Of a DNA stretch of 53,696 nucleotides, positions 17,337-33,494 are shown piece by piece. The notes beneath the pieces are model-generated. The model was not told the origin of the DNA. It did not search any database and saw only the letters and a program-made list of their open reading frames with translations. Position 1 is the stretch's first letter. Each line of letters opens with the position of its first letter. This DNA comes from a virus, in IMG/VR virus record IMGVR_UViG_3300046171_000043, positions 1-53,696 of that record; one strand, 5' to 3'. The translations under genes and the position numbers were made by a program.

Positions 17337-20300
17337 ATGGCAGGTTATACAAGACAGAGTGCTGCGGATATTGTTGCAGGTCAGATTATTAAGGCTGCAC
17401 CTGTAGCTGCTGAACTAGACCAAATCTTAGCAGCCTTTAATCAAGCTTCAGGACACAAACATGACGGTACTGCAGCCGAAGGTGCTTACGTCCCTCTTAT
17501 CTCAGACACGAATGCTTACACTAAAGTTGTTATAGACGAAGCAAACGATAGGATTAGTTTTTACACCAATGTCGGAAGTGCTGCCGTAGAGCAACTACGT
17601 ATCCAAGATGGTGCTATTGTTCCTGTAACAGATGAAGACGTTGACCTTGGTGCCACTGGTGCAGAGTTTAAAGATCTGTACATTGACGGTGTAGGTTACA
17701 TTGATTCTGTTGTGATTACAGGTGGTTCTATTGATGGTACTACTATTGGTGCTACTACTCCTGCTGCTGCTGACTTTACCACAATGGACACAACAGGTAA
17801 TGCCAGTGTTGGGGGAACGTTTGCAGTAACAGGTAACACAACACTATCTGGTACACTAGCAGTCACAGGTTCTTCTACATTCTCAGATACAGTTACTGTT
17901 CCGGGTCTTACAGCCACAGGAACTTCTACACTTTCTACGGTAGACATCAATGCAGGGACTATTGATAATACGGTTATTGGTGCTACTACTCCTGTTGCAG
18001 GTAGCTTTACTACTATTTCGACATCTGGACAAGCTACCCTGGCAACTGTTGATATTGACGGAGGTACTGCTGATAATATTATTATTGGTGGAACAACTCC
18101 AAACCTTATAACAGGTACAACAATCACAGCCAACACAGGCTTTACAGGTGACCTAACAGGAAACGTTACAGGTAACGTGACAGGCAATGTCACTGGTGAC
18201 CTTACAGGGGATGTAACAGGTAATGTCACAGGCAATGTGACAGGGAATATTACTGGAGATGTAACAGGTGATCTGACAGGTAATGTGACTGGTAACGTTA
18301 CAGGAAATGTTACAGGAAATGTAACTGGTGACTTAACTGGTAACGTAACATCTACAGGCACATCCTCATTTGCAGATATCAATATGTCTGGATCTGCAGG
18401 TATTGATATGGGGTCTGCCAAGATTACTTCTCTTGGTGCACCCACTGCTGATTCAGATGCAAGCACAAAGTGTTATGTTGACACACAGATCACTAACTTG
18501 ATTGGTGGTGCTCCAGGTGCTCTTGATACTCTCAACGAACTTGCTGCAGCCCTTAATGATGATGCTAATGCTTACAGCACTCTTACTACTTGCATAGGTA
18601 CTAAACTAGGTACTGCAGGTGGTACTATGACAGGTGACATTGACCTTGGTGCTAACAAGGCTACATCTACAGCTACACCTGCTACAGACGACACACTTAC
18701 TCGTAAGGGTTATGTAGATACTCAGGATGCTCTCAAACTGAGCTTGACTGGTGGTACAATGTCTGGTGCCATTGCAATGGGTACATCTAAGATCACAGGT
18801 CTAGGTGATCCAACTGCTGCTCAAGATGCAAGCACTAAGAATTACACAGACACTTGTGTTGCTACAGCAATGCCTCTATCAGGGGGTACATTCACAGGAA
18901 GTGTACAGACGACTTGTCCTATTATTTCTTGTTACACACCAACAAATGCATGTGATATCACAAATAAGTGTTATGTAGACGGTATCTTACAATCAGCTAC
19001 TGCAGCATGTACTTCTGCTGCTTGTGCATTAGCAAGTCAAACTGCTGCAGCCACAAGTGCTACTTGTGCAAGTAACTCAGCTACTGCTGCTGCCACATCA
19101 GCTAACAATGCAGCTACTTCTTACGATGACTTTGACGACAGATATCTTGGTAGCAAGTCTTCAGATCCTTCTGCAGATAATGACGGTGACGGTCTTCTAA
19201 CTGGTGCATTATACTGGAATACTACAGACAATGCTCTAAAAGTTTACACAGGATCTATTTGGTCCTCTGCAGCATTTACCCTTGGTGATGCTCTTACTCA
19301 AATTGCTGAAGACACTACACCACAACTAGGTGGAGCATTGGATGCTAACTCAAACTGCATCTACAATGCAACGAGTGTTTGTGCTACAAACCTATATGGT
19401 GCTTTCACTGGTGATCTAACAGGTAACGTCACAGGTTGTGTTTCTACACTAAGTAACTTCACAACAGACGATTTAACTGAGGGTGCTAACCAGTACTACA
19501 CAACAGGCAGAGTAGACAGTCACCTATCTGGTGGCACAGGTGTTACTTACTCCTCTGGTGCTATCTCAATTGGTCAGGACGTAGGGACATCTAGCAACGT
19601 ATGTTTTGGATCTGTCTGTGTATCTGCTAACCCCACACAAGCTTGCCAACTTGCAACAAAAGAGTACGTTGATACTATTGCTGCTGCAGGTATTCACTAC
19701 CACACTCCTGTACGTGTTGAGTCACCTACGGCTCTGTCAGCAAACTACAACAACGGATCTAGTGGTGTAGGGGCTACTCTAACAAACTCAGGTACACAGG
19801 CTGCTCTCGTTATTGACGGTGTAACACTTTCAACCAATGATCGTGTCCTTGTTTACAATCAAGCAACTGCAGCCCACAATGGTGTCTACACAGTAACTGA
19901 CACTGGTTCTGCAAGTACTAACTGGGTTCTTACTCGTGCTACAGATGCTGATAGTTACGGAGCTTCAGACCAAGATGCACTAGGGGAAGGGGATGCATTC
20001 TTCGTAAAAGAAGGTGATACAGGGGCAGGTGAATTGTATGTGATGAACACATCAGGTACAATTACATTTGGTACAACAGCTATTAGCTTTACTGTCGTAG
20101 CTGAGACTGCTGTCTATGAGGCAGGTTCAGGCTTGACACTAGATGGTACAACCTTTAACATTGGTGCAGGTACTGGTGTTACAGTAAATGCTTCCAACAT
20201 TGCTATCGGTCAGGCTGTCGGTACATCTGACACAGTAACCTTTGCTAGAGTATGTGCTCCTGTGACAGGTAATGTAACAGGAAACCTAACAGGTAATGTT

Positions 20301-20690
20301 ACAGGTAATCTTACTGGTAATGTCACAGGTAACGTAACTGGATCTTCAGGGTCTACAACAGGTAATGCAGCTACAGCAACTGCACTACAAACTGCTAGAA
20401 ACATAGCACTGTCTGGTGACGTTTCTGGTTCAGCATCATTTGATGGTACGGCTAACATCTCAATTACTGCAACAGTAGCAGATGACAGTCACAATCATAC
20501 AGTAGCTAACGTTGATGGACTAGCAACATGTCTATCAGGTAAAGCTTCTACTTCAGGTCAAACGTTTACAGGTAATATTCAAGCCCCAATCGTTTGTGCA
20601 ACAACATGTTTTGTTGGGGATGGCTCTGCCCTGACAGGAGTATCAGCAGGGGTAAGCCTTGCTAAATCTTATTTCATAGCAACGGCTTAA
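17337..20690 (+). CDS. Tail fibre protein with TGNVTG repeats (1117 aa)
   Basis: The N-terminus (MAGYTRQSAADIVAGQIIKAAPVAAELDQILAAF) is the likely virion anchor. Residues about 270-340 and 976-1003 are built of TGNVTG/TGDLTG hexapeptides, which form triple-beta-helix or collagen-like shafts in fibres. Repeats of the type LGAPTADSDASTKCYVDTQ and TGGTMSGAIAMGTSKITGLGDP follow. From about residue 378 onward cysteines appear where related repeats usually carry Ser or Thr (STKCYVD, QACQLATKEYVD, VCFGSVCVS), a trend that becomes extreme in the next two genes. Receptor binding is probably contributed by the downstream proteins. Confidence 0.8.
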   Translation: MAGYTRQSAADIVAGQIIKAAPVAAELDQILAAFNQASGHKHDGTAAEGAYVPLISDTNAYTKVVIDEANDRISFYTNVGSAAVEQLRIQDGAIVPVTDEDVDLGATGAEFKDLYIDGVGYIDSVVITGGSIDGTTIGATTPAAADFTTMDTTGNASVGGTFAVTGNTTLSGTLAVTGSSTFSDTVTVPGLTATGTSTLSTVDINAGTIDNTVIGATTPVAGSFTTISTSGQATLATVDIDGGTADNIIIGGTTPNLITGTTITANTGFTGDLTGNVTGNVTGNVTGDLTGDVTGNVTGNVTGNITGDVTGDLTGNVTGNVTGNVTGNVTGDLTGNVTSTGTSSFADINMSGSAGIDMGSAKITSLGAPTADSDASTKCYVDTQITNLIGGAPGALDTLNELAAALNDDANAYSTLTTCIGTKLGTAGGTMTGDIDLGANKATSTATPATDDTLTRKGYVDTQDALKLSLTGGTMSGAIAMGTSKITGLGDPTAAQDASTKNYTDTCVATAMPLSGGTFTGSVQTTCPIISCYTPTNACDITNKCYVDGILQSATAACTSAACALASQTAAATSATCASNSATAAATSANNAATSYDDFDDRYLGSKSSDPSADNDGDGLLTGALYWNTTDNALKVYTGSIWSSAAFTLGDALTQIAEDTTPQLGGALDANSNCIYNATSVCATNLYGAFTGDLTGNVTGCVSTLSNFTTDDLTEGANQYYTTGRVDSHLSGGTGVTYSSGAISIGQDVGTSSNVCFGSVCVSANPTQACQLATKEYVDTIAAAGIHYHTPVRVESPTALSANYNNGSSGVGATLTNSGTQAALVIDGVTLSTNDRVLVYNQATAAHNGVYTVTDTGSASTNWVLTRATDADSYGASDQDALGEGDAFFVKEGDTGAGELYVMNTSGTITFGTTAISFTVVAETAVYEAGSGLTLDGTTFNIGAGTGVTVNASNIAIGQAVGTSDTVTFARVCAPVTGNVTGNLTGNVTGNLTGNVTGNVTGSSGSTTGNAATATALQTARNIALSGDVSGSASFDGTANISITATVADDSHNHTVANVDGLATCLSGKASTSGQTFTGNIQAPIVCATTCFVGDGSALTGVSAGVSLAKSYFIATA
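18148..18354 (+). repeat. TGNVTG-coding tandem repeats
   Basis: About a dozen 18-base degenerate units of the form acaggtaatgtnacaggn encode the hexapeptide repeats of the fibre. A second, shorter block is at about 20262-20345. They differ at third positions, so the repeat is old and held by protein selection. The long antisense frames here are shadows of the repeat. Confidence 0.85.
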
Positions 20691-20709: not shown

Positions 20710-22494
20710 ATGGCTAGTGGAAGAACAAGCTGTACAGTTGGAAGTTATCAAACGGCAGAGGTGTACTCTAATACTTCTGGTGGTGCATCCTCTGTTACTT
20801 TAAATGCAACAAGCACAGACTCAACAAAGTGTTTTAAAATTAGTGTGAATATTTCAGATACTTCAATAACACCCCAAACGTTGCAAACTGTTTTATGTAG
20901 TTGCGCTTCACTTTGTGGTTGTCTTGACTACAGTCAGGTTGTATCTTATGGAACAGACACTGATGGCACCTTTAAGGGTGTAACATGTTATCAACCAGAC
21001 GTTGATGTGTTGCAAGGGTACCAAGGTCAGTTTACCTACACAAGGTGCACAGGGGACAGAGTTTCAAAAATAGCAGGACTTCCCAAATGCCCTCAAGTTG
21101 AGATGGGTATGCCTATGCCTTGGATTGGGTCTTTATCAACTTATTGTACGACAGATTTCGTGTGGATGCCTAATACTTGTTGGACAGCAGGTTTCAGACT
21201 TCAAAATTTTGTTCCACACGGAGGTACTGTTGAGCCAGAAAGAGTTTGTGAGTGGATAGCTGCAGGAAACTGCATTCAAGCAGCATACTGTTCTTGTGGT
21301 TGTACTGACAGAGATGGTTGTGCAGGTTCTTCTTCATGCTATTCCTATCGTCCAAACTACGGTGTTTATGGTTCAACATCAAATACAATAGTCAGTAATT
21401 GTTGCAGTATGTGGACCCAGGTTAGTATGGACTATTGGGCTACATTTAAACATATGGTTACGGTAGGCCCATCACAAAGCTGCTCTAACTGTATGTCAAC
21501 TAGGTACGCTTGCCCTAGGTGCCATGAAGCAACTGTAGCTACTTTGACACAATCAAATAACTGCCAAGATAATATGGGAGGTAACCATTGTTTTAACCAC
21601 TGCTTTGACTTCCATCATAGATGTGGTAATGGTAACTTTAGCAATGCCATTGGCTGTCTATGTAGTTGCCACGGTAATTTGCATAGAGCATGGCAGCAAA
21701 GTTGGTATAAAGCTATGTGTAACGTAGTTTGGATGTTTCCTTTAAATCTAAATCCAGGATTTGGAGAGTTAAGAGCAAAGCCATCAAATGTAACAAACCC
21801 TTGCATGTTGTACTGCCATTGTAATGAAGGGGGCCAATCTATGGCAAAGTTCTGCTTATGCATTGATGGTACAATGCCGATTAAGTGGGCTACATACAAC
21901 TGCATTGACGGTAAAAACTACTTTATGTGGCAACACCATAATGCACCAAACTGGAATGGCATCTACAGTATTGATGAAGATCAGTATACTTCTATTATTG
22001 ATCATACCTGCTGTTGTCAGTGTACATGTATAAACTATAATTCTGGTGATGAATTTCCTACAACTTTTGCTACAAAAGTAGCAGACCTTCCTCAAGATTG
22101 GGCAAGTGCTAATGCTAAAGATACTTACTTTGTCAATGCACACCAAGTTGGGCCAACTTGTTTTGTGACCCTGTTTGGTGTATTTGACAATTTATGTGAG
22201 TGTTTTAATATGGATAGGTACTATTCTTCTGATTTGAAAACATGGGATAAAACAGCTTCTGATGAAGTAGCTATCTCAACTAGTGAATCGGTTGCTTTGA
22301 CAGGAACAACTACATGTCTAGATGTTGTTTCAAGTAACTACGGAACTTTGTGTACTTCTGGCCAGATAGAACACAATACACAAGGTATTCAGTTAGAAAG
22401 AACTGGTCTAGTTACTTCAAACGGAGATAAGATATATGTCAAAAACATAGGTGACTCAGCAGCATCAATCAGTGTATGGGGGTACGAAGAGTAA
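20710..22494 (+). CDS. Cysteine-rich tail/fibre protein (594 aa)
   Basis: It follows the fibre gene with a clear ribosome site (AGAGGAAA). By my count about 48 of 594 residues are Cys (about 8%). They are concentrated between residues 55 and 500 in pairs and clusters (SCGCTDRDGC, CCCQCTC), together with many His, Trp and Tyr. The first 50 residues and the last 60 (VALTGTTTCLDVV..., YVKNIGDSAASISVWGYEE) are ordinary beta-rich phage-like sequence. Position suggests a receptor-binding or fibre-tip protein. No known Cys-rich family was recognised; disulfide or metal cross-linking is inference. The stop overlaps the next gene as TAATG. Confidence 0.6.
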   Translation: MASGRTSCTVGSYQTAEVYSNTSGGASSVTLNATSTDSTKCFKISVNISDTSITPQTLQTVLCSCASLCGCLDYSQVVSYGTDTDGTFKGVTCYQPDVDVLQGYQGQFTYTRCTGDRVSKIAGLPKCPQVEMGMPMPWIGSLSTYCTTDFVWMPNTCWTAGFRLQNFVPHGGTVEPERVCEWIAAGNCIQAAYCSCGCTDRDGCAGSSSCYSYRPNYGVYGSTSNTIVSNCCSMWTQVSMDYWATFKHMVTVGPSQSCSNCMSTRYACPRCHEATVATLTQSNNCQDNMGGNHCFNHCFDFHHRCGNGNFSNAIGCLCSCHGNLHRAWQQSWYKAMCNVVWMFPLNLNPGFGELRAKPSNVTNPCMLYCHCNEGGQSMAKFCLCIDGTMPIKWATYNCIDGKNYFMWQHHNAPNWNGIYSIDEDQYTSIIDHTCCCQCTCINYNSGDEFPTTFATKVADLPQDWASANAKDTYFVNAHQVGPTCFVTLFGVFDNLCECFNMDRYYSSDLKTWDKTASDEVAISTSESVALTGTTTCLDVVSSNYGTLCTSGQIEHNTQGIQLERTGLVTSNGDKIYVKNIGDSAASISVWGYEE

Positions 22495-23207
22495 TGGGCA
22501 GACGATTAATAACATCTGCTTCTGAGGCAGCCTCTGGTGGTGGTGGGTACACTCTTTGCAATGATCTTTGTGTAACCTCTGTCAAAGCAGATACTTTTAC
22601 AAATAGCACAAACGGATGCAAACTAGCTCAATTTGAACTAATTGATTGTTGTGATGATTTCCTACATTCTGATTGTAATATGTCATTTGATTACTTAGAT
22701 ATAGCAACTAAGTACGATCTGATATGTTTTAATATATCTTTTCCTGTATCATCATCGGGGTGTAATGTAATATGTGCAAATTTAAACTTCAACAACTGTA
22801 AACTATGTTACGGATGTAGTAGTTCTTGTCCTTATTACACAGGTTGTTACCATTGTTCAGGAGGTTACTGTGTATCTTGTACACGAGATATGTTTGGGTA
22901 TAACTGTGCAATGACTTTCTGTCATGCTACCGTCATAGGAGAGATTTACCCTCTAAAAGGACAATCAGGTATGCAGTCATCCCCTGCAGGGATGGGATAC
23001 TGTGGAGTAGGTTATGACATACACTTAAAAGGTGAGCCTGGGTATTACTTTAGATCAATGGGTTTAAATAGGGGTTTTGTATTCTGCGGTTGTTGTAATA
23101 TTGGTTGGTCTACACTGACTGGTTTATCAATAGGTCACAACTGTGTTAGAAATGCTGTTCCAGGGAAATACTTTTTCTATGGTAGATTATGTCAAGGTCT
23201 AGATTAA
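22494..23207 (+). CDS. Second cysteine-rich tail-region protein (237 aa)
   Basis: Start at ATG 22494, coupled by TAATG to the previous gene; an ATG at 22476 lies inside that gene. About 25 of 237 residues are Cys (about 10%), as in NNCKLCYGCSSSCPYY, GCYHCSGGYCVSC and FCGCCNIGW. The end contains MQSSPAGMGYCGVGYDIHLKGEPGYYF. No recognised family. The shared composition and coupling with the 594-aa protein suggest that the two act together at the fibre tip. Confidence 0.6.
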   Translation: MGRRLITSASEAASGGGGYTLCNDLCVTSVKADTFTNSTNGCKLAQFELIDCCDDFLHSDCNMSFDYLDIATKYDLICFNISFPVSSSGCNVICANLNFNNCKLCYGCSSSCPYYTGCYHCSGGYCVSCTRDMFGYNCAMTFCHATVIGEIYPLKGQSGMQSSPAGMGYCGVGYDIHLKGEPGYYFRSMGLNRGFVFCGCCNIGWSTLTGLSIGHNCVRNAVPGKYFFYGRLCQGLD

Positions 23208-23219
23208 AAGAGGTATAAA

Positions 23220-23525
23220 ATGGTTTCTGTTACAAAATTTGGTGGGACAAGGCTTGGTAAAACACCTGTTACCGTAGAAATTGAACTTACTGAAGAAGAG
23301 CTTACTATTCAGCAACAGAGTATATCTGATAAACTTAACGTGACAAATAGGAGTTTAAGAGATGAACTTTTGTCTTCTTCTGATTGGACTCAAGGGGCTG
23401 ATAGCCCACTAAGTGATTCAGATAAAGCTTTATGGGCTACTTATAGAACTCAACTAAGAGATATTACAACTCACGAAAACTGGCCTGACCTTAACCCTGA
23501 AGACTGGCCCACTAAACCTTCTTGA
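23220..23525 (+). CDS. Tail fibre assembly chaperone-like protein (101 aa)
   Basis: The second half, RSLRDELLSSSDWTQGADSPLSDSDKALWATYRTQLRDITTHENWP, matches the Phage_tail_APC type (pfam16778) found after tail fibre genes in many phages, ending in DWPTKP. These small proteins help fibre folding or assembly. The location directly after the fibre-region genes fits. Ribosome site AAGAGG precedes the ATG. Confidence 0.75.
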   Translation: MVSVTKFGGTRLGKTPVTVEIELTEEELTIQQQSISDKLNVTNRSLRDELLSSSDWTQGADSPLSDSDKALWATYRTQLRDITTHENWPDLNPEDWPTKPS

Positions 23526-23601: not shown

Positions 23602-24528
23602 GTGAAGAAACTATTTATGATTGACGGTGGGGCAGGTCGTGCTATTGCAGCTATTCCTGCTCTTATCAAGTATTCAAAGAAACATGATGACTTTGCTATA
23701 CTCGTACATGGATGGGATACACTATACTGGGGTATTCCAGAACTACAAGACAAAGTGTTTAATCCAGAACAAAAAGGAATCTTTGAGCACGTAGTTTTAA
23801 AGGCAGAAGAGATTATATCTCCTGAGCCATATCGAGTACCAGGTTACTTTAAACAAGAGAAATCACTAGCAGAAGCTTTTGACTACCTGATTAACAACAC
23901 AGACGATCACTCTGACCTTGGAAGTCCTGTTTTAAAAACAGCTAAGATGGAAGAGGTAAATGCTGCAGGTATGGTTCTAGATGTTAAGAATCAGCAACAA
24001 AAGCAAAAGACTATCGTTATTCAACCATTTGGTAGGTCTATTCAAAGACATCAAACTGGAGTTCTTGTTGATGAATCATCTCGTTCACTTGACCCTGACT
24101 CTTACCTAAAATTAGTAAAAAAGCTTTCTGCTAAATTTAATCTTGTCCTAATGGCAGAACAACAGTGTCATATCCAAGAAGACACTTACACTGTAAAACC
24201 AAATGCAGATTTAAGGATGTGGATTCCTTTTATTGATGCAGCAGACTACTTTATTGGTGTAGATTCTGTTGGGCAGCATATGGCTAGGGCATTAGGTAAA
24301 CCCGGCACAATTATTGTTGGTTCTACTTTTGCTGTTAACACCACATATCCAGACTACTTTAACATTGTGGAAAAAAAGGATGCTAAGAAATATTCACCTA
24401 TTCGTATCTCAGGTCTTGAAAGCCATTTAGCTGATAGAGCAAATGATACGTTAATGGACTTTAACGATGAAGAGATCAACAAGATCTATGCAAATATCTT
24501 AAAAGACATTGAAAAGAAGGTGAAGTAA
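23602..24528 (+). CDS. GT9-like glycosyltransferase (heptosyltransferase-like)
   Basis: The start is GTG 23602 with a purine-rich ribosome site (AAGAAAGAAG). The 308-aa protein has a GT-B plan: an N-terminal GGAGRAIAAIPALIKYSKKHDDFAILV segment, then IVIQPFGRS, and a C-terminal donor site WIPFIDAADYFIGVDSVGQHMARALGKPGTIIVGSTF. This last stretch matches ADP-heptose:LPS heptosyltransferases (AADxxxGVDSGxxHLAxALGKP). Acceptor specificity cannot be told. It opens the cassette that encodes ADP-heptose biosynthesis, which strengthens the assignment of ADP-heptose as donor. No signal or membrane segment is seen. Confidence 0.75.
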   Translation: MKKLFMIDGGAGRAIAAIPALIKYSKKHDDFAILVHGWDTLYWGIPELQDKVFNPEQKGIFEHVVLKAEEIISPEPYRVPGYFKQEKSLAEAFDYLINNTDDHSDLGSPVLKTAKMEEVNAAGMVLDVKNQQQKQKTIVIQPFGRSIQRHQTGVLVDESSRSLDPDSYLKLVKKLSAKFNLVLMAEQQCHIQEDTYTVKPNADLRMWIPFIDAADYFIGVDSVGQHMARALGKPGTIIVGSTFAVNTTYPDYFNIVEKKDAKKYSPIRISGLESHLADRANDTLMDFNDEEINKIYANILKDIEKKVK

Positions 24529-24529
24529 A

Positions 24530-26236
24530 ATGAATATCTTAGCAATTAACCCTGGGCATAACGGATCTGCTGCTTTGTTAGTAGACGGTGAACTAAAGTT
24601 CTACATTGAAGAAGAACGTCTTTCTCGTAATAAGTATGATGGTAATCCTTTTAAAGGAATGATGGAAGCACTAAAGTATGGTGTGGATGTCTTAGTTCTT
24701 GGTGGGACAAGTGAAGAGTTTCCTAGATTACCTTGGACTGGAGAAGATCCTTACTCTGGATTCCTACGTAAGTTTAACAGAAACTTAGAAGTTATAACTG
24801 TAGGCAATGCCCACCATGTAGGACATGCCGCAGGTGCTTTCTATAACTCAGGGTTTGACAAAGCTGTTGCCGTTATTGTTGACGGTTCTGGAACTCGAAG
24901 AGAAATTACAGTTAATAAAGACTTTAAAAACCCAGGTTTTGAAACAGAATCATTATTTAATTGTGACTATCATGACGGTATAAGAAATCTGTATACTAAG
25001 TACGGTGGCAACTACGACACTATGCCCATAGAGGACACCATGCTTGATATGGATAATGCAGTCACATTGGTGAAAGCATACGAAGCTGTTTCAGAGTACC
25101 TTGGCTTTGGTTTTATTGAAGCAGGTAAGACAATGGGTCTTGCTCCTTATGGTAAAGAAAACCCAGAAGTTCCTGAGCTATTTGTAGGGGGTAGAGGTAA
25201 CAAGAATGTTTTTATCCCTAGCTACCCTGCAGGAGCACACGTAGACCACAGAAAGTTTCCTTTACTAAAGCTAACAGGTAACCCAAGAGAGTGGCATCAA
25301 GACCCTACAAAAGTTACAGAAGGTGCTAAAGATTTAGCTTGGGCTGTGCAAGAAGATACACAACGTCTTGTTGGGGATTTGATTGAAAAAGCTGTAGAAA
25401 TGACAGACAGAAAGAATGTCGTTATTGCAGGGGGTTACGGTCTAAACTGTGTAGCTAATTATTACTACAAGAAACGTTTTCCTGATCTAAACATTTACGT
25501 TGATCCTGTTTCTCATGATGGTGGTACAGCTATTGGCTTAGCCTACCTAATTCATTACCAGAAGAATAAAGAAGATGAAACGAAACGTCCACTAAGTACA
25601 CTGTACCTTGGGCCTGAACGTAAAGAAAATTACGATCTAGAAGGATGCGACACAAAGGATGTTACCCCTGCTGATGTAGCTAAACTGATTGCAGAAAAGA
25701 ACATTGTTACGTTGTTCCAAGGCAGATCAGAGGCAGGGCCAAGAGCACTTGGTAACCGTTCTATCCTATATGACCCCACAGATCCTAATGGTAAAGACAC
25801 AGTGAACAAGGTCAAAGGCCGTGAATGGTTCAGACCCTTTGCAGGATCAATGCTCAAGGAATACTTTGAGGAATGGTTTGAAACACATGGAATGGAAGAG
25901 TCACCATTCATGATGTATGCAATGGACTTCAAGACTGACAAGCATGGGGAAGTTCCTGCTATCACACACGTAGATGGTACATGTCGTATTCAGACTGTAA
26001 CCAGAGAGCAGAACGAAGCCTATTATGATCTCATTGAAGAGTTCCGTAAGATCACTGGTGTACCAATCCTGTTTAATACAAGCTTCAACCTAGCAGGTGA
26101 ACCCCTTGTAGAAACACTAGAGGATGCACTGCACACCATGAAGAACTGTGACATTGATTACATGTACCTACCAGAGGTAGGGAAGCTTGTTACGGTAGCT
26201 TCTGAGCAAACTGAAGAAGATTCTCAAACACCTTAG
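24530..26236 (+). CDS. NodU/CmcH/TobZ-family O-carbamoyltransferase
   Basis: The 568-aa protein has the full family layout. The N-terminal ASKHA-type domain shows NPGHNGSAALLVDG, EERLSRNKYDG, HHVGHAAGAFYNSGF and AVIVDGSGTRRE. A central GGYGLNCVANYYY and DPVSHDGGTAIGLAY come next. The C-terminal YrdC-like domain shows EAGPRALGNRSIL, REWFRPFAGSM and VPILFNTSFNLAGEP. The family transfers a carbamoyl group from carbamoyl phosphate, through carbamoyl-AMP, to a sugar hydroxyl. Here the likely substrate is the sugar made or transferred by this cassette (inference). It starts 2 bases after the upstream stop. Its 3' end overlaps the inverted gmhB by 47 bases. Confidence 0.9.
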   Translation: MNILAINPGHNGSAALLVDGELKFYIEEERLSRNKYDGNPFKGMMEALKYGVDVLVLGGTSEEFPRLPWTGEDPYSGFLRKFNRNLEVITVGNAHHVGHAAGAFYNSGFDKAVAVIVDGSGTRREITVNKDFKNPGFETESLFNCDYHDGIRNLYTKYGGNYDTMPIEDTMLDMDNAVTLVKAYEAVSEYLGFGFIEAGKTMGLAPYGKENPEVPELFVGGRGNKNVFIPSYPAGAHVDHRKFPLLKLTGNPREWHQDPTKVTEGAKDLAWAVQEDTQRLVGDLIEKAVEMTDRKNVVIAGGYGLNCVANYYYKKRFPDLNIYVDPVSHDGGTAIGLAYLIHYQKNKEDETKRPLSTLYLGPERKENYDLEGCDTKDVTPADVAKLIAEKNIVTLFQGRSEAGPRALGNRSILYDPTDPNGKDTVNKVKGREWFRPFAGSMLKEYFEEWFETHGMEESPFMMYAMDFKTDKHGEVPAITHVDGTCRIQTVTREQNEAYYDLIEEFRKITGVPILFNTSFNLAGEPLVETLEDALHTMKNCDIDYMYLPEVGKLVTVASEQTEEDSQTP

Positions 26237-26837
26237 TCTTCTTTCTTAGTTTCTCCTTAGAGAACTTTTGAAGATCTTTTTCAGTAGCTACCCCATGACC
26301 AGTACGTACTAAGATTGGGGTAGCACCAATACGATCCGCAGCTTTAAGATCTGTCATTTTATCACCTACGTAAAACCCTTTATCTTTAAATCTAATTTTG
26401 TTGTTGAACATTTCTTTTTCAGTACGGTGAAACATACCAAGATTAGGTTTTGCATAGTAGTCTTCTTTGAGTGAAGACTCAGCATAAAATAAACCATCAA
26501 TGGAGTAGATACCTGCATTGCCAAACACTTCCATCATACGTTGATGAATGGCATCCACTTGTGCATGGGTCTGCTCTTTTTTAATAATACCACCTTGGTT
26601 AGTTAAGATTACTACTTTGTAACCTTTTAATCTAATCATACGAATAGCTTCTAGTGATCCGGGGATAGGCTCCCAGTCATCAGGATCAGTAAGGTAGTGC
26701 CCTTTATCTATGTTGATAACACCGTCACGGTCTAGACCAACAATAGATTTAGGGAACACAGTAGGCCAATCAGGTGGTAGGTTTTGCTGTTGAACTTGTT
26801 GTGGGTCTTGTTCTATTATGTGTTTGAATCGAGACAT
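26190..26837 (-). CDS. gmhB: GmhB-like D,D-heptose 1,7-bisphosphate phosphatase
   Basis: HAD-superfamily IIIA phosphatase, 215 aa. The first 30 residues (Gln/Pro rich) are extra. The catalytic motif is GLDRDGVIN (Asp36 nucleophile, Asp38), followed by ILTNQGGI, AKPNLGMF and FYVGDKMTDLKAADRIGATPILV. The family removes the C7 phosphate of heptose 1,7-bisphosphate before nucleotide transfer. The usual zinc loop (CxH...CxC before the RKP motif) is missing: here YAESSLKEDYYAKP has no Cys. The gene is inverted relative to the rest of the cassette, overlaps the carbamoyltransferase end by 47 bases, and leaves only 14 bases to the divergent hldC-like start. Confidence 0.85.
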   Translation of the reverse strand: MSRFKHIIEQDPQQVQQQNLPPDWPTVFPKSIVGLDRDGVINIDKGHYLTDPDDWEPIPGSLEAIRMIRLKGYKVVILTNQGGIIKKEQTHAQVDAIHQRMMEVFGNAGIYSIDGLFYAESSLKEDYYAKPNLGMFHRTEKEMFNNKIRFKDKGFYVGDKMTDLKAADRIGATPILVRTGHGVATEKDLQKFSKEKLRKKTKVFENLLQFAQKLP

Positions 26838-26851
26838 AGTGGATATTACCT

Positions 26852-27262
26852 ATGAAGAAAGTTTTTGTTAACGGTGCTTTTGATGTTTTGCACTCTGGAC
26901 ACCTTGATCTCCTTGATTTTGCAGGGATGTTAGGTGGTCATTTGCTAGTAGCTATTGACACAGACGCACGTATTGAGTATAACAAGGGTATCGGAAGACC
27001 TTTTAATCCTTTGTCAATACGTAAACATATAATGTCTATGTTGAAGCCTGTCAATAGTGTCACAGTATTTGGTTCAGATGAAGAGCTAGTTGACATCATA
27101 AGACAGTATGAACCAGACGTAATGGTAAAAGGCTCTGATTGGAAGGGGAAGACAATACTTGGGGAGGAGTACTGCAAAGAGATAGTATTCTACGAGAGAA
27201 CCAATGGGCAGTCTACCACAAAAGCAATCGAAGATTTTATTACTAGGAGACAGTTGTTATGA
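26852..27262 (+). CDS. HldE C-domain-like heptose 1-phosphate nucleotidyltransferase
   Basis: The 136-aa protein is a stand-alone cytidylyltransferase-fold domain. FVNGAFDVLHSGHLDLLDFA carries the HxGH motif (His14, His17). VAIDTDARI, KGIGRPFNPLSIR, DVMVKGSDWKGK and ERTNGQSTTKAIEDF are the other family signatures. In HldE this domain makes ADP-heptose from heptose 1-phosphate and ATP. Here it is separate and lies before the kinase, the reverse of the order in bacterial HldE. Its last 59 bases overlap the kinase gene in another frame, and both readings carry conserved residues. Confidence 0.85.
   Translation: MKKVFVNGAFDVLHSGHLDLLDFAGMLGGHLLVAIDTDARIEYNKGIGRPFNPLSIRKHIMSMLKPVNSVTVFGSDEELVDIIRQYEPDVMVKGSDWKGKTILGEEYCKEIVFYERTNGQSTTKAIEDFITRRQLL
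27026..27054 (-). promoter_or_regulatory. Candidate minus-strand promoter for the inverted gmhB
   Basis: On the minus strand TTGACA (27054-27049) and TATATG (27031-27026) are 17 bases apart, about 190 bases upstream of the gmhB start and inside the hldC-like gene. The -35 is consensus and the -10 matches four of six. Chance occurrence is possible in AT-rich DNA. Confidence 0.3.
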
Positions 27263-27959
27263 TGAATATCATACAGGAACTGTAACCAGAATAAGCCCAG
27301 AGGCACCTGTACCTGTCTTTGATCTTACCTCAACTGTAATAAAAAGAGGTATGGCATACAACGTCTACAACAACCTAGTCAATCTAGGGGCTAGGGTAGA
27401 CATCATAACAGAGTACAGAGAACGTAAACATAGATACGTTGAAGACAAGACTGGTCAGCAACTGATCAGAGTAGATGAAAAGATTAAGACTGAGCACATA
27501 GATACAGCAGACGAAAACCTGAGTATGTATGATGCTGTTGTCCTCTCAGACTACAACAAAGGATTTGTACAAGAGGGTGACATAAAAGATTTTAGAGCTA
27601 AGTATAACGGGCCTATCTTTGTTGACACTAAGAAGACCAACCTAGCTCAGTTTGATGGCTGCTTCGTAAAGATAAACCAGTACGAGTTTGAAGCAGCAGA
27701 AACACTAACAGACGATCTAATCGTCACATACGGCTCAAAGAAAGTCGAGTACAAAAACAGAACTTACCTACCCCCTAGTGTAGAAACTCATGATGTGTGT
27801 GGTGCAGGAGATACGTTCCTAGCAGGACTTGTTTTTAAGTACTTGGAATCGTATGATATGGATGCTGCTATAAAGTTTGCAATGGATGCAGCAGCTATAA
27901 CTGTACAACATAGAGGTGTGTATGCACCTACACTAGATGAGGTAGTAAATGAGACTTGA
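27204..27959 (+). CDS. HldE N-domain-like heptose 7-phosphate kinase (PfkB family)
   Basis: The 251-aa ribokinase-fold protein shows KILLLGDSCYDEYHTGTVTRISPEAPVPVFD near the start. It continues with GMAYNVYNNLVNLGARVDIIT, LSDYNKGFV and the catalytic CGAGDTFLAGL (Asp about 203). RISPEAPVPV is characteristic of HldE/RfaE kinases. The reaction is phosphorylation of D-glycero-D-manno-heptose 7-phosphate at C1. It is shorter than the HldE kinase domain (about 310 aa), with a compressed middle. The start at 27204 lies inside the upstream gene; no later Met would keep the GD...EY motif. It overlaps the cupin gene by 11 bases. Confidence 0.8.
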   Translation: MGSLPQKQSKILLLGDSCYDEYHTGTVTRISPEAPVPVFDLTSTVIKRGMAYNVYNNLVNLGARVDIITEYRERKHRYVEDKTGQQLIRVDEKIKTEHIDTADENLSMYDAVVLSDYNKGFVQEGDIKDFRAKYNGPIFVDTKKTNLAQFDGCFVKINQYEFEAAETLTDDLIVTYGSKKVEYKNRTYLPPSVETHDVCGAGDTFLAGLVFKYLESYDMDAAIKFAMDAAAITVQHRGVYAPTLDEVVNET

Positions 27960-28305
27960 AGGCTTCGTTAAGAAAGGTTGGGGGTCTGAGCTAATCTGGG
28001 CAACCAACGACAAGTATTGTGGTAAGTTCTTACAATTTCACTTTGGTGGCAAGTTTTCAATGCACTTCCACAAAGAGAAAGATGAAACATGGTACGTCTT
28101 ATCTGGTAAGTTTGAAGTACACTGGATTGATACTGAAGATGCAACATTACACGTTGAAGAGTTAAACGAGGGAGACACATGGCATAACCCACCTCTAGTT
28201 CCTCATCAAATATTTTGTTTAGAGGAAGGTACACTTGTAGAAGTTTCTACTCCTGATTCCGTTGAAGATAATTATCGTGTCGGAAAGGGAGACAGTCAAG
28301 AATGA
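27949..28305 (+). CDS. Cupin-domain protein, sugar isomerase-like (118 aa)
   Basis: A single cupin barrel. The metal-binding motif 1 is FSMHFHKEKDETWYVLSGKFEV (two His and a Glu), and motif 2 is WHNPPLVPHQIFCLEEGTLVEVST with one His. The sequence resembles the small mannose-6-phosphate isomerase type II-like cupins found in capsule and O-antigen loci. It could isomerise or epimerise a sugar phosphate in this cassette, where no GmhA gene is present; whether it replaces GmhA is speculation. Overlaps both neighbours (11 and 4 bases). Confidence 0.65.
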   Translation: MRLEGFVKKGWGSELIWATNDKYCGKFLQFHFGGKFSMHFHKEKDETWYVLSGKFEVHWIDTEDATLHVEELNEGDTWHNPPLVPHQIFCLEEGTLVEVSTPDSVEDNYRVGKGDSQE

Positions 28306-29072
28306 AAATCTTAGTTACAGGTAGCAATGGTTTTATCGGCAAAAATCTTATCAATAAACTACAGGATGAACATGAAATTATTAAGAACGAATGGGGGATG
28401 TCGTTCCCTCCAATTAAGAATCTAGACTGGGTTATACATTTAGGGGCCATAAGCTCCACAACAGAAACAAATATATCTAAGATATACAGACAGAACCTAG
28501 AGTTTAGCATTAAGCTATATGAGGAGTGCATAGCTAACAACGTAAAGTTTCAGTTTGCTTCTAGTGCTTCTGTCTACGGACTAAAGTCCGACTTTAAAGA
28601 AACATCTCCTCTTAATCCTCAGAACCATTATGCACGTAGCAAAGCTATGTTTGAGAGATACGTAGAGTTGAGAAATGCTCCTATTACTACACAACTGTTT
28701 AGATACTTTAACGTCTACGGACCACAGGAAGAGCACAAGGAAAACCAAGCTAGTCCGTACACACAGTTTAAGCGGCAAGCAAAAAGTAGTAGAGTTATTA
28801 AGATCTTTAAAGGATCTGAAAAGTATAAAAGAGATTTTATCCACGTTGACCAAATCACAGAGTACCACAAAGGATTCTTAGAATTAGAAGAGTCAGGTGT
28901 TTGGAACATGGGAACTGGAACAGCAAAAAGCTTCTACGATGTAGCTAACGAAATAGCAGATGAATACGGTGCTAAAATAGAGTACATCGAGATGCCACAG
29001 ATTTTAAAAGGTAATTACCAAGAGTTTACTAGGGCAGATACGACAAAGCTTTGGAAGACACTAGCAATTTAA
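28302..29072 (+). CDS. hldD: HldD-like ADP-heptose 6-epimerase
   Basis: An extended SDR protein of 256 aa. The Rossmann motif is TGSNGFIG (Gly7, 10, 13). HLGAISSTTETN, FASSASVYG, NHYARSKAMFE, YFNVYGPQEEHK, FKGSEKYKRDFIHV and ILKGNYQEFTRADTTKL follow, each matching the corresponding signature of HldD (for example GAxSSTTE, YFNVYGPRExHK, GSExFKRDFVYV, LKGRYQxFTxAD). HldD converts ADP-D-glycero- to ADP-L-glycero-D-manno-heptose with NADP. It is shorter than E. coli HldD (310 aa). Last gene of the cassette; ATGA overlap with the cupin gene. Confidence 0.85.
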   Translation: MKILVTGSNGFIGKNLINKLQDEHEIIKNEWGMSFPPIKNLDWVIHLGAISSTTETNISKIYRQNLEFSIKLYEECIANNVKFQFASSASVYGLKSDFKETSPLNPQNHYARSKAMFERYVELRNAPITTQLFRYFNVYGPQEEHKENQASPYTQFKRQAKSSRVIKIFKGSEKYKRDFIHVDQITEYHKGFLELEESGVWNMGTGTAKSFYDVANEIADEYGAKIEYIEMPQILKGNYQEFTRADTTKLWKTLAI

Positions 29073-29084
29073 GGTGCTTATACT

Positions 29085-32000
29085 ATGGCAGGTGAACTAA
29101 CGATAATTGAGAATGCTGACGGTACAGCTACAATCAACTTCCCAGGTGGGGGTAAACATACTGTTGGCAACATCGATGGTGAAAACGATATTAACTCAAA
29201 TATTGCTGCCTTACAGGGAGCATATGGTGGACGTATTGGAGAAGTTCAACGTCTAGATACTGGGTCTTCTAGCTCTGGGTCTAATAATACTCAGGATTTA
29301 AGTACGACTCAGAGTAGTAACTACTTTGATACCGAAACAGGTTTGTACCACTATCAAGGTGAAACTTATAGTAGTGCTCTTGATTATTCTAAGGCAGTTC
29401 AACAAGAACGTTTAGACCAAGGTTTAGAAATTGATGAAACATCTGCTGCTGCTTTGTCAGGATGGACAGGAGAAGATGATCTAGAGCAAACAGGTGGTGG
29501 GTCTTCTGCATCTGTTGACATAGGATTTGAGTACGTTCCTGAAGAATTATCAAGCACTGCTGAAGCAGATGATATTGCAAGAAACAACAACAGAGTTCAC
29601 ATTATTAACAGAACTACAGGAGAGTACCTGTTAAATGAAGACGGAACAAAATGGGTAGGAAATGCAACTAATGCAGGTGGTTCTGTCCAAGTTCAAAAGT
29701 TTTACACTCAACAGTTAATTAACTCTGTCCTTGCAGATAGTGGAAGTACTGTCCTACAAGATGCTGAAATTACTTACTATATGGAAGACGGTAAGTGGAG
29801 AGCTAAAGATCAGTACGGAAACATTGGTGCAAAAAGAGATACTAAAGATGCTGCCCTAGCTACGTATAATAGACACTTTAACGTAGGTATGAAGACTGCT
29901 GAGACACCAGAACAAAAAGCTGCCCTTATGAATATTGCTCAAGAGCTTTCTTTGTTTGGTGGTATGTACAAAAGAAATTTAATTGGAATGGTAGCAGGAT
30001 CCATTGATCCTTACCTTTCTTCTGATTTTAGTGCAAAAAATAAATTTATTCAAACACTAGGGTTAGGAACAAGTGGTGGTACTGGAGATTGGGGAGCAGG
30101 TCAAACTCCTTTTTACATACACAGTAACCCTGATAATGAAATATCTTACAGAGAACACACAAATAAAAATGGGGATAAGTACTACTACTTAGACATTTAT
30201 AGTCCTGAGGGTGCTCGTGTTGGTACATTACATCAGAACTTTGCTTGGAATGCTGCAGACTATATCACAGGTAAAATGAGGTACGGCCTCAGTGATGAAA
30301 AGATGCAAGCTGCTTCTAATTTCTTGTTTGAAAACCAAGGAAACTATGGTGGTGGAACAAAAGATGGTGACAGACTAGCTGAGTTTGCAACCATGACTGG
30401 TGAAGAACTTAAAGCTGACTTTCTAGCAAGAGCAGGAACACAGTTTAGAGATTCTAGTGGAAATTTAGTTCAGCACGATCAGGACTATAGAGGTTTTTCC
30501 TATTCTCCAGAAATGTTTAGTCCCGGCTTTGAAGGTACAATGCAAAATCAGTTGACAAGCAGGGTTAACTACAACCTAGCTTTGTTTGATGTGTATGATG
30601 CCTTTAAACCAAAGCAGTATACTGCTGATTCTTACATTGCAGAGATAAACAACAGGCTTGGCCTTGATGGTAAGTTGTCTGTGAAGAATGTAGGGGATGA
30701 GGATGATCCTTTCTACAGCTATGTGTATCAATTTGACACAGGTGAAACATTAAAGGTTGCACCTAATAGGGATTTCATATTTGGAGCAGGGTCGGAAATA
30801 TTTAGATCAGGCTCTAGAACAAACACACCTTACTGGCTACTAGAAGAATCTGGTGGTGATTTCCAAACATACTCAGATCTAAAAGAACAGTATGGTATTC
30901 GTACAGATGGATTTGATCCTACTGTTTCTAGTGGTGGGGGTGACGGTCAAGATTCCTCAGGCACAGGTAGTAGTGGTAGTGGCAGTGGCTCTAGTGACCA
31001 AGATCAATCCCAAAGTGGGGGTGGAGGCTCTGGATCAGTTGATGCAGGTGGCTCTGGTGGTCAGATCATTGAAGGTGACGGAACTACAAAGACTGCTACT
31101 ACTTTCCAAGGTGGTTACACAGATCCAGTTGCTGTGGGTAACACAGGTACAACAACTGATGATGGATCAGGAACAACCCAGACAGGCACCGTTCAATCAG
31201 GTCAGTCTCTTACAAATGCTATCAATAACCCTGCTAACGTTTCTGTTGCAGGGACGTACCCAATGGCTCAACAGACTGGAACAAACCAAGCAACAACAAA
31301 CACAGGCACACTTAGTTCATTACCTGCTACATACCAGTACAAAGATAACTACACTGGTACAAACATGCAGAACTTAACTGCTGCTTCACAAGGTGTGAGT
31401 GGCCCTAAAAGTGTTCTATACAGAAACGATTACGGACAAGAGATGATGATTACCGTTGACGCAAACGGAACACCTCTTATCTACGTTCCTCCTGGGTATA
31501 AACCTGTAACAGCAAACAATTTCGGGGGTCTTCAAAAGGATCCACAAAAATCAAGTGAGGACATCTATCTAAGAATTGCTAAGAGGGTAATGAACTTCCA
31601 AGGCAATTCCTCTGATCTGAAGAAAGCAATGGCAGCAAGTCCTGCTATGGCTGCTAAACTAGGTAGTATGACTAATGCCCTTATGAACATGGGTGGAGTC
31701 AAACTTGGTGCTGATGAAGGTACTGATTCTGATGGTATGACTGCAGAAGAAATAGCAGCAGCCAACGTAGACAACATCAGAAATGCTGTTGGAGCAGAAA
31801 CATTCCAGAACATGCAGAAGGATGTTGTCACACAGACGATGACTGGTCCTAGACAAGGCACCGTAAACTATCTGACTGCTGATGAAAACGATCTTATTAG
31901 TTCTACTGCAGGTCAAGCTGTAAGTCAGGCAGAAATGGCTAACGTAGCCACAGCAGATAAGGTTACTCAGGCTAATACTCCTATCTCTGCTGACCCTGTT

Positions 32001-33494
32001 GGGTATAATGCAACCCAAGTTCAAACAGATATGTCAACAGCAAACCAGAACCTAACAGGTGTAACTGGTAATCTTGGCACTCAATCTCAGGTTGATGGTG
32101 TTACCTTCCAAAGACAGAGAATTGATCCTAATACAGGGCAACCTATGTTCAATCCAGACGGATCTCCTATTATGGAATCAGCAACGTCTGTTGATAGATT
32201 ACAGGGTGCCGAAGGAACATATAAGTCGGTAGCTGATGTAGCAGGAGAAGGTGGGTTACCTACTCGTACATTGCAGACAGGTGAGAACGGAGAGCTTGTA
32301 ACTGGTACTGGTGTAGATCAATCTAAAGTAGATGCAGCATTCGGTACAGGTGAAGTAGCTGCTGCCTCTATGCAAGATGAACTAGCAGGTCTTATGCAGC
32401 AGTTTGAAGGTGGTGACACACCTGCATGGGCTGCCGGGTCTATGAGAAAAGCAAGTGCTATGCTTGCTGCTCGTGGCATTGGTGCTTCAAGTATGGCAGG
32501 TCAGGCAGTCATTCAAGCTGCTATGGAAGCTGCCCTACCTATTGCTCAGATTGATACAGCCAACAAGCAACAGATGGCTATGTTCAAAGCTGAACAAAGA
32601 GCCAAGTTCTTGGGTATGGAGTTTGATCAATCATTCCAAGCTAAGGTTCTGAATGCAGCTAAAGTTTCTGAAATAGCTAACATGAACTTTACTGCTGAAC
32701 AGCAGATTGCTTTAGAAAACTCTCGTGCTGCCAACACAATGGCTATGGAGAACCTGAGAAACGATCAAGCTCTTGTAATGGCAGAGGCTGCTGCTCTATC
32801 TCAAATGGATATGGCTAACCTCAATAACCGTCAGCAAGCTGCAGTACAGAATGCTCAGAACTTCCTGCAGATGGACATGGCTAACCTAAACAACTTGCAA
32901 CAAACTGCTATGTTTAAAGCACAGCAAATAGCACAAGCTATCTTTACTGATCAGGCTGCAGACAATGCAGCTAAACAGTTTAATGCTGTCAACGAAAACC
33001 AAACAAACCAGTTCTTTGCAAACTTGTCTGCTCAAGTATCTCAGTTCAATGCATCTCAAGCTAATGCTATGGATCAGTTCAACCTGAACTCAACCAATGC
33101 TTTGAGGCAGTTTAATGCAGAGCAACAGAACCAAAGAGAAATGTTCAATGCTCAGAATGGTCTTGTGATTGCACAGTCTAATGCTCAGTGGAGACAGAAC
33201 ATTGCTACTTTGAATAGTGCTGCACAGAACGAAAGCAACATGCAGTTTGCTCAGACTATGAATGGGTTCACTGCTACTAACCTTGATGAAATATGGCAAC
33301 GTGAAAGAGATCTGTTGTCTATGGCTTTCAAAGTTTCTGAAGGCAATGCTGATAGAGCTACTGAAGTTGTGTTACAAAAGATTGCTGCACAAGCAAGTAA
33401 AGATGCTGCAGAACTTCAAGCTAACTTAGAGGCTGAGAAGAACTCAGGTAACTTCATCAAAGAGATTATATTGGGAATTACAGGTCTAGGATAA
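29085..33494 (+). CDS. Giant internal virion / ejection protein (1469 aa)
   Basis: The first 600 residues are polar, with no recognised enzyme motif. Residues about 620-760 are Gly/Ser/Gln/Thr rich and likely disordered. The last 350 residues are a long helical region with degenerate repeats such as QMDMANLNNRQQAAVQNAQNF and FNASQANAMDQFNLNSTNALRQFNAEQQ, typical of ejected internal proteins. Gene size and position before a lysozyme-domain protein and another very large protein match the internal core proteins of podoviruses. It probably helps form the DNA ejection conduit. The stop overlaps the next start as TAATG (33492-33496). Confidence 0.7.
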   Translation: MAGELTIIENADGTATINFPGGGKHTVGNIDGENDINSNIAALQGAYGGRIGEVQRLDTGSSSSGSNNTQDLSTTQSSNYFDTETGLYHYQGETYSSALDYSKAVQQERLDQGLEIDETSAAALSGWTGEDDLEQTGGGSSASVDIGFEYVPEELSSTAEADDIARNNNRVHIINRTTGEYLLNEDGTKWVGNATNAGGSVQVQKFYTQQLINSVLADSGSTVLQDAEITYYMEDGKWRAKDQYGNIGAKRDTKDAALATYNRHFNVGMKTAETPEQKAALMNIAQELSLFGGMYKRNLIGMVAGSIDPYLSSDFSAKNKFIQTLGLGTSGGTGDWGAGQTPFYIHSNPDNEISYREHTNKNGDKYYYLDIYSPEGARVGTLHQNFAWNAADYITGKMRYGLSDEKMQAASNFLFENQGNYGGGTKDGDRLAEFATMTGEELKADFLARAGTQFRDSSGNLVQHDQDYRGFSYSPEMFSPGFEGTMQNQLTSRVNYNLALFDVYDAFKPKQYTADSYIAEINNRLGLDGKLSVKNVGDEDDPFYSYVYQFDTGETLKVAPNRDFIFGAGSEIFRSGSRTNTPYWLLEESGGDFQTYSDLKEQYGIRTDGFDPTVSSGGGDGQDSSGTGSSGSGSGSSDQDQSQSGGGGSGSVDAGGSGGQIIEGDGTTKTATTFQGGYTDPVAVGNTGTTTDDGSGTTQTGTVQSGQSLTNAINNPANVSVAGTYPMAQQTGTNQATTNTGTLSSLPATYQYKDNYTGTNMQNLTAASQGVSGPKSVLYRNDYGQEMMITVDANGTPLIYVPPGYKPVTANNFGGLQKDPQKSSEDIYLRIAKRVMNFQGNSSDLKKAMAASPAMAAKLGSMTNALMNMGGVKLGADEGTDSDGMTAEEIAAANVDNIRNAVGAETFQNMQKDVVTQTMTGPRQGTVNYLTADENDLISSTAGQAVSQAEMANVATADKVTQANTPISADPVGYNATQVQTDMSTANQNLTGVTGNLGTQSQVDGVTFQRQRIDPNTGQPMFNPDGSPIMESATSVDRLQGAEGTYKSVADVAGEGGLPTRTLQTGENGELVTGTGVDQSKVDAAFGTGEVAAASMQDELAGLMQQFEGGDTPAWAAGSMRKASAMLAARGIGASSMAGQAVIQAAMEAALPIAQIDTANKQQMAMFKAEQRAKFLGMEFDQSFQAKVLNAAKVSEIANMNFTAEQQIALENSRAANTMAMENLRNDQALVMAEAAALSQMDMANLNNRQQAAVQNAQNFLQMDMANLNNLQQTAMFKAQQIAQAIFTDQAADNAAKQFNAVNENQTNQFFANLSAQVSQFNASQANAMDQFNLNSTNALRQFNAEQQNQREMFNAQNGLVIAQSNAQWRQNIATLNSAAQNESNMQFAQTMNGFTATNLDEIWQRERDLLSMAFKVSEGNADRATEVVLQKIAAQASKDAAELQANLEAEKNSGNFIKEIILGITGLG

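Follow-up and report, generated by a model that had tools for sequence, protein, structure and literature searches.

Why would a phage carry predicted enzymes of heptose synthesis and transfer beside its tail genes? We addressed this for a marine HMO-2011-type podovirus of 54 kb, related to roseophages CRP-9 and CRP-13, whose 53,696-nucleotide sequence we call the window. Seven open reading frames occupy positions 23602 to 29072, and all nine motifs quoted for them in the initial annotation were found in the reading frames given there. We thus confirmed the cassette.

The first gene, which has a GTG start, encodes a GT-B, GT9-like protein (23602 to 24528, plus strand; phrog_8954) that is a predicted ADP-heptose transferase. 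It is followed on the same strand by a NodU/TobZ-type O-carbamoyltransferase gene (24530 to 26236). The gene for a GmhB-like HAD phosphatase lies on the minus strand (26190 to 26837); its 3' end shares 47 bp with the end of the carbamoyltransferase gene, and its start is 14 bp from that of the divergent gene for an HldE-C-like sugar-phosphate nucleotidyltransferase (26852 to 27262, plus strand). The minus strand of the phosphatase gene was absent from the earlier description. The remaining genes, all on the plus strand, encode a short HldE-N/HldA-like kinase (27204 to 27959; 251 aa), a cupin with a complete metal motif (27949 to 28305), and a short HldD-like epimerase (28302 to 29072; 256 aa). 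We found that all seven genes are under purifying selection (median dN/dS, about 0.07 to 0.13) and that the cassette recurs, with its gene order kept, in dozens of viral contigs.

Upstream of the cassette are a tail fibre gene (17337 to 20690), genes for two cysteine-rich proteins, and a gene for a tail assembly chaperone-like protein (23220 to 23525, plus strand; Phage_tail_APC, PF16778, E 2.1e-13) with homologues in CRP-9 and CRP-13. The downstream boundary is a 1,469-aa virion-module protein (29085 to 33494, plus strand), the C-terminal half of which is 64% identical to CRP-9 gp40. In cassette-free phages, CRP-9 gp40 comes directly after the tail genes. The tail-region placement of the cassette is kept in HMO-type podoviruses, T4-like cyanophages, and other lineages.

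Predicted heptose chemistry of the cassette

Family profiles, predicted folds, and HldD active-site residues support ADP-heptose chemistry, and we consider it highly probable that the cassette performs heptose chemistry. The kinase matched TIGR02198 (E 1.9e-36), at 125.8 bits against a cut-off of 345 and with 251 aa against a full length of 315 aa. Its RxSPEAPVPV substrate region and GAGD catalytic motif are invariant (alignment A1), and its model (pLDDT 88) matched HldA best (E 9e-19), six orders of magnitude ahead of the next fold. We rejected a bacterial source for the kinase: no relative in genomes exceeds 33% identity, and these relatives resemble ordinary HldE/HldA. The nucleotidyltransferase has the HxGH and STT motifs and matched TIGR02199 (E 2.3e-27; 95.6 bits; cut-off, 181.5), with the TagD family next at 65.8 bits; its closest solved structure is the CDP-glycerol enzyme TagD. 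The phosphatase matched PRK08942 (E 1.4e-37) at 129 bits, below the curated GmhB cut-off of 178, and GmhB structures were its top PDB matches. It keeps the HAD DxD motif and core (DRDGVIN, KPNxGM, and VGD; alignment A4). It lacks the Cys/His loop with which E. coli GmhB binds zinc; the loop reads YAESSLKEDYYAKP and contains no cysteine. The epimerase matched TIGR02197 (E 6.7e-66) at 222.6 bits, below the equivalog cut-off of 274.6, and its Rossmann domain is shortened at residues 30 to 60. Residues S116, Y140-x3-K144, and K178 of E. coli HldD are invariant among the phage epimerases (alignment A9). None of the cassette proteins reached the curated NCBI equivalog cut-offs.

These four enzymes are predicted to catalyze the same reactions as the Gram-negative GmhA-HldE-GmhB-HldD pathway that operates with WaaC/WaaF. 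In contrast to that pathway, the HldE functions are divided between two short proteins, the kinase and epimerase are 50 to 60 aa shorter, GmhB lacks the zinc loop, and GmhA is absent. The absence of GmhA had been claimed from the window, and it held more widely: we found no profile match to SIS-domain GmhA (TIGR00441), in the cassette or elsewhere, in any of 22 records (the window and 21 related phage records). The cupin (PF07883, E 5.6e-9), an invariant partner in the cassette with conserved H, H, E, and H residues, may substitute for GmhA. Its PHROG label is "cysteine dioxygenase," enzymes that to our knowledge lack the metal-site Glu. Because the cupin keeps this Glu and also occurs at loci without cysteine-rich proteins, we did not take it to be a thiol enzyme.

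The transferase matched GT9 profiles weakly (PF01075, E 8e-4; heptsyl_trn_III, E 1.2e-6), with a PF01075 score of 19.2 bits under the Pfam cut-off of 22, and its own profile found no match among PDB sequences. Its AlphaFold model (pLDDT 81) has a GT-B fold, and the best PDB folds were TibC, WaaF, and WaaC, all users of ADP-heptose. The GT9 assignment is weak by sequence and strong by fold. The donor motif GxDSxGQHxA, of the C-terminal DSxxxHxA type, is invariant. The N-terminal GD motif, which holds the catalytic base and is invariant in E. coli heptosyltransferases, is absent; the phage enzymes instead have an invariant GGAGR at a position judged equivalent by eye. The best fold match is to the TibC/AAH autotransporter heptosyltransferases, which transfer heptose from ADP-heptose onto an adhesin (TibC is an ADP-heptose:protein transferase [PMC4358343]), and the phage enzyme would likewise have a protein acceptor. 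It differs from them in being smaller, with about 10% identity, and in lacking the GD-type base motif, the four-cysteine iron finger (it has 1 Cys in 308 aa), and the N-terminal beta-barrel, which is not in the model.

The carbamoyltransferase exceeded the gathering scores of both Pfam domains of the NodU/TobZ/GdmN enzymes (PF16861, Carbam_trans_C, E 3.6e-63, 212.6 bits versus 27; PF02543, Carbam_trans_N, E 5.2e-20, 72.6 bits versus 24). Its HHxxHA...D metal ligands align with the HxxxH...D metal site of TobZ. The substrate in the phage is putatively the heptose; the LPS core of P. aeruginosa, which contains 7-O-carbamoyl heptose (PMC7168646), is a precedent. Profiles, folds, and residues together upheld the families that the initial annotation had read from motifs for the kinase, nucleotidyltransferase, epimerase, GmhB-like phosphatase, carbamoyltransferase, and GT9-type fold.

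Cysteine-rich proteins upstream of the transferase

The two proposed glycan acceptors are a 594-aa tail-region protein with 48 cysteines (8.1%; 20710 to 22494, plus strand) and a 243-aa protein with 25 cysteines (10.3%; 22476 to 23207, plus strand). The larger protein had no Pfam or PHROG match, and its sole distant relative among 50,697 phage records is in the transferase-positive AG-345-O18. The smaller has a relative with 48% identity at the same position in another cassette locus (L009). Cassette loci encode tail-region proteins with 6 to 13% cysteine. Their genes mostly lie immediately before the transferase gene, and the proteins form about 17 sequence clusters that have mainly cysteine and location in common. 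Using tblastn with three of them, we found matches only in transferase-bearing phages or in a sister contig of the same single cell. Within families, cysteine was conserved at 64% versus 65% for glycine and was preferentially swapped for R, Q, M, S, T, W, or A. A search of a limited literature collection found nothing on cysteine-rich cyanophage tail proteins or tail glycosylation.

In our first set, a protein with at least 6% cysteine lay upstream of the transferase in 45 of 46 distinct loci. Only 2 of 169 open reading frames in P-SSM2 exceed 4.5% cysteine, and both directly precede the transferase gene. Eight cyanophages without the transferase had no cysteine-rich protein, though some have the kinase or carbamoyltransferase, and neither did the corresponding region of eight cultured HMO-type phages that lack the cassette. 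The transferase alone was a poorer predictor in a wider sample (40/58), and we rejected it as such. Among 80 distinct transferase loci, which are not independent of phylogeny, a cysteine-rich protein was present in 56 of 58 with GmhB or the EcbF-like HAD306 phosphatase and in 3 of 22 with neither (P = 2.5e-13); this condition was picked after the data were seen, and its independent support comes only from one locus (L078) that lost both. Five of the 80 loci break the association, which counts against reading these genes as a module. IMG/VR contains at least 500 further transferase loci. On the transferase tree, the cysteine and phosphatase labels change 7 times each and 9 times jointly; therefore, several changes coincide. 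We also found that 19 loci with the transferase and a carbamoyltransferase-type gene but no phosphatase lacked cysteine-rich proteins. Thus, cysteine is not a requirement of the transferase by itself. Several cysteine-rich loci have GmhB and no kinase, nucleotidyltransferase, or epimerase nearby.

Proposed virion glycosylation and its alternatives

We lean toward reading the cassette as a module of the late tail region that glycosylates the virion, placing a carbamoylated heptose on cysteine-rich tail proteins. Among the three purposes that the initial annotation had offered, decoration of the virion is best supported, through the tie between these proteins and the cassette. Whichever residue bears the sugar, the acceptor is more probably than not a cysteine-rich tail protein. 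So extreme a cysteine content is most simply explained if the cysteines are attachment sites, and we tentatively suggest that the heptose is S-linked to them; a possible alternative is that it is attached to serine, threonine, or asparagine within a fold rich in cysteine. We put forward with still more reserve that several phage lineages clothe their receptor-binding surface in carbamoylated heptose S-linked to many cysteines of dedicated tail proteins. If this is true, S-heptosylation of cysteine would add a new kind of protein modification.

In the proposed mechanism, a C7 sugar phosphate would come from the host, or from sedoheptulose 7-phosphate if the cupin replaces GmhA. Judging from their families, the kinase would form the 1,7-bisphosphate, the phosphatase would remove the 7-phosphate, the HldE-C-like enzyme would make ADP-heptose, and the epimerase would invert C6. 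The GT-B enzyme may then transfer the heptose in the cytoplasm to the cysteine-rich proteins encoded upstream, before or during tail assembly, and the TobZ/NodU-type enzyme would O-carbamoylate it. As it stands, this mechanism leaves the phosphatase link unaccounted for.

The main rival is that the phage makes ADP-heptose and a carbamoylated heptose caps host LPS, altering the receptor and excluding competing phages, which we consider possible but unlikely. The GT9 enzymes WaaC, WaaF, and WaaQ work in the cytoplasm, where they modify the LPS core, and need no flippase, the transferase fold matches include WaaF and WaaC, 7-O-carbamoyl heptose is known in P. aeruginosa LPS, and cyanophage and pelagiphage papers interpret such genes as LPS genes. 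This explanation leaves the tight tie to cysteine-rich tail proteins unexplained, however, and the cassette lies within the virion module, adjoining tail genes, in several unrelated phages. In addition, marine Synechococcus LPS reportedly lacks heptose. Superinfection blocking by the cassette is possible.

Somewhat less probable is that the cysteine-rich proteins are metal-binding or disulfide-bonded adhesins, co-inherited with the cassette and unmodified at cysteine. Consistent with this, CC pairs are enriched 1.5-fold and CxC 1.4-fold, some cysteines are invariant in two distant phages (L045 and L248), and cassette and adhesin could form one hypervariable recognition module. In contrast, no metal-binding domain was recognized in these proteins (best, Fer4_2, E 0.076), the trait is common to about 17 sequence clusters, and phages with the kinase and without the transferase lack such proteins.

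That the product is another activated sugar, such as a CDP- or ADP-sugar built on some other sugar phosphate, is improbable. The unreached equivalog cut-offs, the TagD structure, and the missing GmhA would fit this, but the nucleotidyltransferase scores 96 bits with HldE-C versus 66 with TagD, the kinase fold is clearly that of HldA, the epimerase keeps HldD residues, and all the best transferase folds use ADP-heptose. Finally, although ADP-heptose is a known ligand of ALPK1, we found no support for the suggestion that the phage raises it to act on eukaryotic innate immunity, which is extremely improbable given a dedicated transferase and carbamoyltransferase that consume the sugar, free-living marine hosts, and the tail-region placement.

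Related gene sets in other phages

The initial annotation knew of only single such genes in phages. A heptose route in phages is not new: P-SSM2, S-CAM1, S-CAM3, S-SSM7, and Sf-FS3 carry the full set, differing in the form of the phosphatase. Linked LPS genes were remarked on by Sullivan et al. in 2010 (PMC3037559), and the gene set was remarked on in a note on SynMITS9220M01 (PMC7378029). Virion glycosylation would move genes that have for years been classed as phage "LPS genes," and that are present in these cultured phages, towards a testable function with a likely acceptor.

The T4-like cyanophage cluster T4-GC 302-308 (PSSM2_307-313 in P-SSM2) shares with the window the transferase, carbamoyltransferase, nucleotidyltransferase, short kinase, cupin, and short epimerase. 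As in the window, it adjoins tail genes and is preceded by cysteine-rich proteins. It differs in belonging to large cyanobacterial myoviruses rather than a 54-kb podovirus, in its inverted epimerase gene, and in having, instead of GmhB, an EcbF/BcbF-like HAD306 phosphatase. This protein is the cyanophage "phosphoheptose isomerase"; we rejected it as a GmhA, which corrects a recurrent annotation error.

Enzymes of the probable heptose cassette

To place the cassette (23602-29072), we compared its proteins with profiles and predicted structures. We recovered all seven genes and every motif described in the initial annotation. The proteins reached the named families with E-values of 1e-66 to 1e-27, except for the GT9 transferase. 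For this protein, the profile match was weak by sequence, but the predicted fold (pLDDT 81) matched TibC, WaaF, and WaaC, all ADP-heptose enzymes, with moderate TM-scores (0.5-0.6) and large rmsd. None of the cassette proteins reached curated equivalog cut-offs; thus, we describe them as working like these enzymes rather than file them as equivalogs. Median dN/dS was in the purifying range (0.07-0.13) across all seven genes. The GmhB-like gene lies on the minus strand, converges on the carbamoyltransferase gene, and starts 14 bp from the divergent nucleotidyltransferase gene.

The epimerase retains E. coli HldD residues S116, Y140, K144, and K178. The kinase, which has the HldA motifs, is about 60 aa shorter than HldA; in structure comparison, the predicted model (pLDDT 88) matched HldA at 9e-19 versus 1e-12 for the next family. 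The nucleotidyltransferase scored higher with HldE than with TagD and may make an ADP- rather than a CDP-sugar. The GmhB-like protein has no zinc loop. By visual comparison, the transferase carries an Arg where GT9 enzymes carry the Asp base; this would suit a thiol acceptor but does not prove one. In the related contig L074, the GmhB-like protein (8853-9584) reads GLEYDGVIN and VGHRM, having lost the HAD nucleophile and one metal-site Asp; that cassette is otherwise complete.

As proposed initially, GmhA is absent, with zero profile matches in 22 records. We rejected the cyanophage "phosphoheptose isomerase" (HAD306) as GmhA, as it matches the EcbF/BcbF phosphatase family. The cupin was found in every complete cassette examined. 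Given this constancy and weak profile matches (PF01050, 0.0013), it could be a type-II phosphomannose-isomerase-like stand-in for GmhA.

Related phage cassettes

The route has precedents in phages: P-SSM2, S-CAM1, S-CAM3, S-SSM7, and Sf-FS3 carry nearly the same set. Four of the gene clusters in this set (T4-GC 304, 305, 307, and 308) were already described as co-occurring, with a probable functional link (Sullivan et al. 2010, PMC3037559). In S-SSM7 and Sf-FS3, the cassette is interspersed with 2OG-Fe(II) oxygenases and a second carbamoyltransferase-like gene. An IMG/VR search with one transferase query found the family in at least 580 viral stretches, far above what annotated phage genomes suggest.

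In one related locus (L010), the nucleotidyltransferase, kinase, and cupin are 97-100% identical to those of the window and the transferases 72-76%; another (L009) shows the reverse, with close transferases and divergent nucleotidyltransferase, kinase, and cupin. GmhB is 96% identical in both. This mosaic places a recombination point near the GmhB/nucleotidyltransferase junction.

Cysteine-rich proteins as candidate acceptors

A neighbor scan of unrelated phages found proteins of 8-12% cysteine directly upstream of the transferase. In a first set, a cysteine-rich protein was present at 45 of 46 distinct loci. Among ORFs of 150 aa or more, none exceeded 5.2% cysteine in eight transferase-negative cyanophages, and the only two P-SSM2 ORFs above 4.5% both precede the transferase. 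When three cysteine-rich proteins were searched (tblastn) against 50,697 phage records, every match lay either in a phage with the transferase or on a sister contig derived from the same single cell.

In a wider sample, just 40/58 loci had a cysteine-rich protein, and we therefore revised the picture of dependence on the transferase alone. Such a protein was found at 56/58 loci with GmhB or HAD306 versus 3/22 without (Fisher P 2.5e-13, on related and thus nonindependent loci and with the phosphatase condition chosen after the fact). Mapped on the transferase tree, the cysteine label and the phosphatase label each show 7 changes and together 9, which means that about five of them coincide. Phages with the kinase and HAD306 and without the transferase had no cysteine-rich proteins. 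The apparent phosphatase dependence holds even where the kinase and nucleotidyltransferase are not nearby. At seven loci (L047, L371, L373, L378, L395, L402, and L415), the cysteine-rich protein, transferase, carbamoyltransferase, and GmhB are present, and the kinase, nucleotidyltransferase, and epimerase are not nearby. Contig L078 (47.7 kb) has a cassette complete except for GmhB and no cysteine-rich protein anywhere.

The cysteine-rich proteins form about 17 clusters (phmmer), some with N-terminal stretches common to virion structural proteins. Conservation within families is as high for cysteine as for glycine. Lost cysteines are mostly replaced by polar or small residues, which suggests that these positions are exposed rather than buried. 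Modification sites or metal ligands fit this better than a disulfide core, although it does not decide the matter. The best-supported reading of the cassette is that heptose would be put on tail proteins in the cytoplasm and then carbamoylated. TibC, an ADP-heptose transferase able to modify an adhesin, is a precedent (PMC4358343). S-linkage would most simply explain the cysteine excess.

Phage and host

The 53,696-base IMG/VR record is an HMO-2011-type podovirus, based on identity to Roseobacter phage CRP-9 (DNA polymerase, 82%; portal, 79%; major capsid protein, 95%), and it probably infects a roseobacter. In cultured HMO-type phages, the position of the cassette is occupied by tail genes and the cassette is missing. 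The large terminase subunit, a single gene in CRP-9, is divided in the window between two ORFs that overlap in different reading frames (6141-6986 and 6895-7728), through a frameshift, an insertion, or an assembly error.
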